The notes beneath the pieces were generated by a model that was not told where the DNA came from, ran no database searches, and saw only the letters and a list, made by a program, of their open reading frames with translations. This document shows positions 13,256-34,890 of a DNA stretch of 36,213 bases, piece by piece; within the stretch, counting starts at the first letter, position 1; the number at the start of each line of letters is the position of its first letter. Origin of the DNA: Candidatus Nosocomiicoccus stercorigallinarum (GTDB lineage: Bacteria; Bacillota; Bacilli; Staphylococcales; Salinicoccaceae); NCBI GenBank assembly GCA_019119225.1, contig DWXM01000034.1:1-36213 (forward strand), in the 5' to 3' direction. Made by a program: the position numbers and the translations under genes.

Positions 13256-13494
13256 CGTTCTGGAAATTCTCACGTTATTATTGCGGGGTCAGGTAGTTAT
13301 ATCGTTTAATTAACAAAAACTTACGTGATTATCTCAGTTTTGTAAGATAAAAAGATTTAATTAACAAAAAGCGTGCGTTGATGACAGAAAGTGTTAAATA
13401 AAAAAGTTTATTTGACAAAATGCAATCGAGTTCGTCAAAAAATGTAAAATAAATCGATATAATGAACAAATTTCGAGAAAAAATGTTAAATAGT
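13256..13494 (+). repeat. AT-rich non-coding element A: four phased imperfect dyads (upstream of cysK)
   Basis: Most of the gap after hslO is a structured repeat. Left-arm starts at 13305 (TTTAATTAACAAAA), 13356 (TTTAATTAACAAAAA), 13407 (TTTATTTGACAAAA) and 13457 (ATATAATGAACAAAT), that is steps of 51, 51 and 50 bp. Each is followed by a roughly complementary right arm: TTTTGTAAGATAAA (13338), TGTTAAATAAA (13392), TGTAAAATAAA (13443), TGTTAAATA (13484). The sequences between arms are unrelated. A matching element lies upstream of cysE at 34664-34890; similarity seems to extend leftwards through a GCGG..TC block and ..TATCGTTTAATT and ends at TTAAATAGT in both. There is no coding potential. 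Exact boundaries are uncertain and function is unknown. Confidence 0.65.
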
Positions 13495-13499
13495 AAAGT

Positions 13500-13538
13500 A
13501 AGCTTCCGAACTTTAATCTATAGTTCGGAAGCTTTTTT
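13500..13538 (+). terminator. Strong intrinsic terminator downstream of element A
   Basis: Perfect 13-bp stem AAGCTTCCGAACT (13500-13512) and AGTTCGGAAGCTT (13522-13534), 9-nt loop, then a T-run. It lies about 250 nt after the hslO stop and 6 nt after element A, so a transcript covering element A (hslO 3' UTR or a separate RNA) would end here. Confidence 0.88.
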
Positions 13539-34416: not shown

Positions 34417-34445
34417 TTGAAAAGAATTAAAAAACGATATATAAT
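34417..34445 (+). promoter_or_regulatory. Promoter of the cysE-cysS T-box transcript
   Basis: TTGAAA (34417-34422), 17-bp spacer and a perfect TATAAT (34440-34445), just after the gltX stop. Transcription should begin near 34452. Confidence 0.78.
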
Positions 34446-34451
34446 TCCTTT

Positions 34452-34614
34452 GTTCAAAGTATTTAAATAATGTGAAATCAGAGATTGCTTGGCTGGTGTG
34501 AAAGCAACACTGTTATTTAGAGAACTGCAATAATTAAAGATGCAATATTAAAGGAAAAATCAGAGTGGAACCGTGCGACGCACCTCTGTCCGTATTAGGG
34601 CAGGGGTGTTTTTT
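34452..34614 (+). promoter_or_regulatory. T-box leader, probable tRNA-Cys specificity
   Basis: The T-box sequence AGTGGAACCGTGCGAC (34564-34579) fits the consensus AGGGTGGAACCGCG with two changes, and it overlaps a terminator, as in all T-boxes. Upstream is a stem I region with hairpin TTGCTT/AAGCAA and, at its 3' side, AGAGAACTGCAAT with TGC (34526-34528) in the place of a specifier codon, which reads Cys. Uncharged tRNA-Cys would let transcription continue into cysE-cysS. The full stem I fold was not computed, so the specifier is less sure than the T-box itself. Confidence 0.85.
34581..34614 (+). terminator. T-box terminator
   Basis: 11-bp stem CACCTCTGTCC (34581-34591) and GGGCAGGGGTG (34598-34608) with two G-T pairs and a GTATTA loop, then TTTTTT. 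Its 5' arm overlaps the sequence that would form the antiterminator. Confidence 0.9.
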
Positions 34615-34663: not shown

Positions 34664-34890
34664 AGGTACTAAGAATACCTCAACGCAATATTTAGAGCGG
34701 TCTTTTTATCGTTTAATTTACAAAGAACATTCGAATTTGTAAGATATATCCTTTTATTTAACAAAAACAGTTTGTATTCAGTTGAAACTGTTCATTATCT
34801 ACATTTATTTTACAAAAAACGATAAAAAAACTAATTTCTGTTAAATATATTAATATTTTTAACATATTCGACTATTTTTTGTTAAATAGT
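34664..34890 (+). repeat. AT-rich non-coding element B: four imperfect dyads (in the cysE leader)
   Basis: Second copy of the element seen upstream of cysK. Left arms: TTTAATTTACAAA (34712), TTTATTTAACAAAAA (34753), TTTATTTTACAAAAAA (34804) and TATTTTTAACA (34854), in steps of 41, 51 and 50 bp. Right arms: TTTGTAAGATA (34736), TGTTCATTATC (about 34790), TGTTAAATATA (34839), TGTTAAATAG (34880). The second module adds a perfect AACAGTTT/AAACTGTT pair. Both copies share a GCGG..TC block, then TTATCGTTTAATT or TATCGTTTAATT at the left, and end in TTAAATAGT. The element lies inside the transcript that reads through from the T-box into cysE. Confidence 0.65.

Follow-up and report, generated by a model that had tools for sequence, protein, structure and literature searches.

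Results

Two copies of an intergenic array in the window

The window analysed here is a stretch of 36,213 nucleotides from the draft genome (G000, 1.39 Mb) of Candidatus Nosocomiicoccus stercorigallinarum, in which two copies of an intergenic repeat lie on the same strand, copy A between hslO and cysK and copy B between gltX and cysE (Table 1). Copy B is situated between cysE and an upstream T-box leader (34444-34590), the match of which to Rfam RF00230 (41.4 bits, E 9e-8) does not reach the gathering score of 93.

The element spans ~190 bp and comprises eight 14-bp half-sites, i.e. three 30-bp palindromes of the form TTTGTTAAATA-N8-TATTTAACAAA, spaced ~51 bp apart, plus one outer half-site per end, with spacers of 19 bp inside the element and of 19 or 9 bp at its ends. 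An earlier reading of the letters alone (hereafter, the sequence-only reading) had described four dyads; the arms it saw are real, but they are better read as three fixed palindromes, each made of a right and a left arm, with variable spacers and two outer half-sites, than as four hairpins. Of the left arms it placed in copy A, those at 13305, 13356 and 13407 are correct, whereas the fourth starts at 13458 rather than 13457, giving a period of 51, 51 and 51 bp; the right arms start at 13338, 13389, 13440 and 13481. It rightly saw the same layout recurring on the same strand at 34664-34890, although the left arms of copy B (34712, 34753, 34804 and 34854) step by 41, 51 and 50 bp, not 51, 51 and 50, because of a short outer loop at its start; the right arms there begin at 34735, 34786, 34836 and 34877. 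The ends that it assigned to the two copies (13256-13494 and 34664-34890) hold, but the starts do not, as 13256-13304 and 34664-34711 lie outside the repeat. Copies A and B are alike in their first right arm, TTTGTAAGATA, and in their last arm, ...AAATAGT, and may be sister copies.

Table 1. Positions of the two array copies and their parts within the window
Feature	Position	Strand	Remarks
Copy A, whole element	13305..13494	+	eight half-sites; spacers 19, 19, 19, 9 bp
Copy A, neighbours			hslO stop 13252 on one side; terminator-like inverted repeat 13500-13534, then cysK, on the other
Copy A, outer half-site L1	13305..13318	-	TTTAATTAACAAAA
Copy A, palindrome 1	13338..13369	.	R1 13338-13351, L2 13356-13369
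Copy A, palindrome 2	13389..13420	.	R2 13389-13402, L3 13407-13420
Copy A, palindrome 3	13440..13471	.	R3 13440-13453, L4 13458-13471; more degenerate
Copy A, outer half-site R4	13481..13494	+	preceded by 9-bp spacer
Copy B, whole element	34712..34890	+	spacers 9, 19, 18, 9 bp; T-box leader / cysE interval
Copy B, palindrome 1	34735..34766	.
Copy B, palindrome 2	34786..34817	.	right arm degenerate
Copy B, palindrome 3	34836..34867	.

The palindrome core (three or fewer mismatches) occurs four times in the window versus never in 100 shuffles, and genome-wide 44 times in G000, 40 times in the second Nosocomiicoccus genome compared (G017) and 70 times in the third (G018), with no occurrence of the reversed pattern; the window count and the 44 to 0 ratio to the reversed pattern in G000 exclude chance.

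Half-sites are helically phased and evolve slowly

A half-site scan made without any spacing assumption returned a single layout, L-(33 or 23)-R-18-L-33-R-18-L-33-R-18-L-(23 or 33)-R, the numbers being distances between 14-mer starts, with outer arms that are often degenerate. Within palindromes, 131 of the 133 neighbouring pairs have a right-to-left distance of 18; from left to right, the distances are 33 (96 cases), 23 (44) or, in nine cases, 22 or 32, but never 24-31, and the inner spacers are exactly 19 bp long in 84/92. Successive half-site centres are separated by 20, 31, 20, 31, 20 and 21 or 31 bp, which amounts to two or three turns, and are in phase with a best period of 10.2 bp per turn (vector strength 0.98; 300 simulations in which spacer lengths were random reached 0.53 at most), which places them on one face of the helix. 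Aligned copies carry position-specific arm variants, e.g. TTTTGTTAGATAAA as the second right arm, implying that all copies derive from one ancestor; the spacings are therefore not independent observations, which weakens the phasing test. However, ancestry alone explains neither the choice between 9- and 19-bp spacers, which differ by exactly one turn, nor why length has stayed constant where sequence is saturated.

The spacers are near random in sequence, with an identity between paralogues of 34-35% as against 28-29% expected, but retain a weak position-specific consensus and hence may depart somewhat from neutrality. Across 14 orthologous G000/G017 element pairs, divergence is 5.2% in half-sites, 19.2% in spacers and 20.8% in the 4-bp cores, the difference persisting when A/T positions alone are counted (arms 4.3%, spacers 16.7%; odds ratio 4.4, p 5e-18, 14/14 loci agreeing). 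Since fourfold sites in the flanking hslO, cysK, gltX and cysE genes have diverged by 13%, the spacers evolve at a roughly near-neutral rate while the arms are held back by purifying selection. The proposal of conserved arms in strict phase, with the sequence between them free to vary, is hence borne out.

The family is specific to Nosocomiicoccus

The element is a dispersed intergenic repeat, present at a dozen or more places and restricted to the genus Nosocomiicoccus. A gapless sequence-only profile of the three palindromes (134 columns) matches 3/3 Nosocomiicoccus genomes and 0/154 others of the order, and the core palindrome is absent from 26 of 30 other genomes of the family, the remaining four having a single match each. 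Searches of genome and viral collections for the exact palindrome found nothing in viral contigs and, elsewhere, only isolated hairpins without relation to the repeat, in Treponema and in two other MAGs; blastn searches with the element against phage and plasmid collections gave no matches. In the Treponema MAGs (L047, L048 and L050-L053), one perfect TTTGTTAAATA-N8-TATTTAACAAA hairpin, unrelated to the repeat, lies at a single conserved position, ahead of a small gene resembling that for the ATP synthase c subunit.

Copies lie mostly at the same sites between species. The element is found at both hslO-cysK and gltX-cysE in G000 and G017; in G018, contigs break at both places, with element sequence on both contig ends at hslO-cysK, whereas its presence at gltX-cysE is inferred from the contig break. 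The hslO-cysK site lacks the element in genera g5, g3 and g6, and gltX and cysE are almost adjacent in two g5 genomes. Individual copies can be dispensed with, as the site beside a CorC-domain gene has an element in G000 and G018 and is empty in G017. It follows from these site comparisons, and from the absence in g5, g3 and g6, that the family arose in the genus and is mostly stable, with copies still being gained or lost.

Complete arrays have three palindromes in nearly all cases. Whole-element tandem copies with a period of 235-267 bp occur in G018, including an array of 3.4 copies with a period of 266 bp (L088:31-932), each unit of which has, beyond its eight half-sites, a conserved dyad, TTATC...GATAA, that is also seen next to many other copies. 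In G017, two near-identical copies and a truncated one (L077:4551-5920) flank a small gene encoding a 93-residue, apparently bacteriocin-like peptide with no Pfam match, where G000 has one element. In both species, a NERD-domain gene lies, cassette-like, between two direct copies with related spacers (L078:2003-3302 and L074:9370-10717). In G018, an element adjoins what appears to be the C-terminal part of an IS3-family transposase (L097:1-252).

The flanking genes include moaB/moaC, recQ/EamA, pcp/EamA, purC/metallo-hydrolase, CNNM-CBS/copZ, SMR transporter/prepilin peptidase, LytTR, M20 peptidase, NERD, TM2, ABC transporter, D-glutamate cyclase, folE2 and nrdE genes, among others. Roughly five G017 sites are convergent (moaB/moaC, recQ/EamA, pcp/EamA and purC/hydrolase being among the convergent sites), eight co-directional and three divergent. 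Both orientations relative to neighbouring genes are used, and polarity toward the terminus looks random by eye.

Discussion

The conserved half-sites, the spacers that are near neutral yet fixed in length, and the 10-bp steps together form a signature that points to protein binding on one face of the helix. We modestly favour the interpretation that a single dimeric DNA-binding protein, which probably oligomerises, would use the eight half-sites as a helically phased array, a candidate role suggested by the quantisation of the spacing by 10 bp, the slow half-sites, the near-neutral spacers and the lack of covariation (below). The three 30-bp dyads and the two outer half-sites would each be recognised by the putative dimeric protein, presumably a single host protein, and, as all half-sites face the same way on the helix, adjacent dimers could make contact or wrap the DNA. 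The earlier suggestion of a protein-binding array with sites about five helical turns apart thus gains support from the 10.2-bp phasing and the purifying selection on the arms. The role of such an array would probably be architectural, in chromosome or nucleoid organisation, rather than the control of particular genes. A more specific and only tentative version is that of a genus-specific chromosome organiser, in which an oligomeric protein would wrap or bridge each ~190-bp array via its eight in-phase half-sites; a period of 10.2 bp, less than the 10.5 bp found in relaxed DNA, is in keeping with wrapping around a protein core. If so, the more than a dozen sites would anchor the nucleoid whatever genes lie next to them.

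Two alternatives raised by the sequence-only reading, RNA hairpins and shared control of cysteine genes, fare poorly. That the element acts as RNA, with four transcribed hairpins and variable loops, is very unlikely: the arms are complementary, and locus L087 (z -5.3) and, modestly, copy B (z -2.2) fold better than shuffles, but copy A does not (z -0.86), the folds are inconsistent between copies, and pairings across the loops or within the palindromes covary no better than with shuffled partners. With no compensating changes in either geometry, pairing in RNA or in a cruciform is not supported, and protein recognition of each half-site would be the simpler reading. Nor would loops be expected to keep a strict spacer length and 10-bp steps, and the elements occur in both orientations relative to neighbouring genes; at gathering score, Rfam gave only tRNAs in the window and no match to the element there or in the scanned loci. 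RNA hairpins were rejected on the negative covariation counts and the inconsistent folds. We give very little credence to the idea that the arrays serve as operators through which a transcription factor controls cysteine or sulfur genes, as in a CymR-like regulon. Copy A does precede cysK and copy B cysE, and all three species retain both sites (by inference for gltX-cysE in G018), but these two sites, both in the window, are the only ones with sulfur genes among the identified flanking genes, so that the location expected of CymR or cysteine operators was not found across them. The other identified neighbours are unrelated, with no function in common, which makes the link to cysteine genes probably one of chance; several copies sit in convergent intergenic regions, which offer no promoter for an operator to act on, and cysE is already equipped with a T-box, albeit one below the gathering score. 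The sequence-only reading had also named random intergenic scatter without covariation, or a period and arms no better than in shuffled sequence, as grounds for doubt: the matches are indeed scattered and do not covary, but the period and arms go far beyond those of shuffles, and selection maintains them.

Of the explanations that invoke mobility or recombination, a non-autonomous, MITE-like repeat, with half-sites as subterminal transposase or recombinase sites and copies that are mostly immobile relics, is possible but doubtful. It would account for the position-specific arm variants shared from a common ancestor, for the gain or loss of copies between species, for the near-identical recent copies around the small gene in G017 and for the tandem copies in G018. 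The outer half-sites make inverted ends, L1 and R4 being inverted copies, as expected of terminal inverted repeats, although this follows from the array itself. The fourfold slower evolution of half-sites in orthologous copies is, however, unexpected for relics, and no Y1/RAYT transposase occurs in the nine genomes examined. At the empty G017 site the intergenic DNA does not align, with no target duplication definable there. A REPIN/RAYT system was rejected on the absence of the Y1 transposase (PF01797) from all three Nosocomiicoccus genomes. It is highly improbable that the element is a CRISPR-like array or a set of recombination sites. Repeats of ~30 bp with unique 19-bp spacers recall the former, but the repeats are degenerate and complete arrays nearly always have three palindromes; the 11-8-11 palindromes resemble the core geometry of tyrosine recombinase (Xer-type) sites, and we take one arm variant to resemble a XerD arm, but an ordinary single dif, ACTTCCTATAATATATGTTATGTAAACT, lies elsewhere in all three genomes and the number of integrase-family genes is not unusual. 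The element is not itself dif, which is an 11-6-11 site present once per chromosome near the terminus. The separate dif (G017:C1:872087-872114), identical in the three genomes, lies ~13 kb from two element copies.

Searches of the literature on half-site strings and on Nosocomiicoccus repeats yielded nothing relevant and no published description of the repeat. The biotin operator of BirA has half-sites, TTGTTAA...TTAACAA, like those of the element, but the spacing in the element is ~3 bp shorter, its half-site continues with AATA, and none of its many arrays was seen at biotin genes; it was rejected as an identification. The sopC centromere of plasmid F is an array of tandem ~43-bp units with an inverted repeat, on which bound dimers build a larger complex. 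Centromeres of this type are single plasmid loci with par genes, whereas the element has many chromosomal copies and no known partner.

Like BOX, RUP, REP/BIME and other MITE-like intergenic repeats, the element is small, palindromic, dispersed and genus-restricted (PMC10969869); by their descriptions, these families are set apart by the fixed eight phased half-sites and free spacers of the element, for which searches of Y1 and integrase families found no transposase partner. The STAR elements of Staphylococcus are interspersed intergenic arrays of a short motif with locus-specific spacers, stable positions and unknown function; the motif, T(G/A/T)TGTTG(G/T)GGCCC(C/A), is GC-rich, 14 bp long and directly repeated, with spacers of 40-44 bp (PMC3532100). 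Membership of the STAR family was rejected, as the motif TDTGTTGKGGCCCM has no exact match in 210 loci and matches in the window are at chance level. The earlier view that no named family fits holds. In layout the element nevertheless resembles STAR: both form interspersed intergenic arrays at stable positions, with spacers specific to the locus and the last one distinct, and both expand and contract locally, although the motif of the element is AT-rich and palindromic, with 19- or 9-bp spacers phased at 10.2 bp. The interspersed intergenic repeats of Gram-positive cocci, such as STAR, are of unknown function, and for the element described here, with the same kind of layout, the quantitative signature makes the question of protein binding directly testable.
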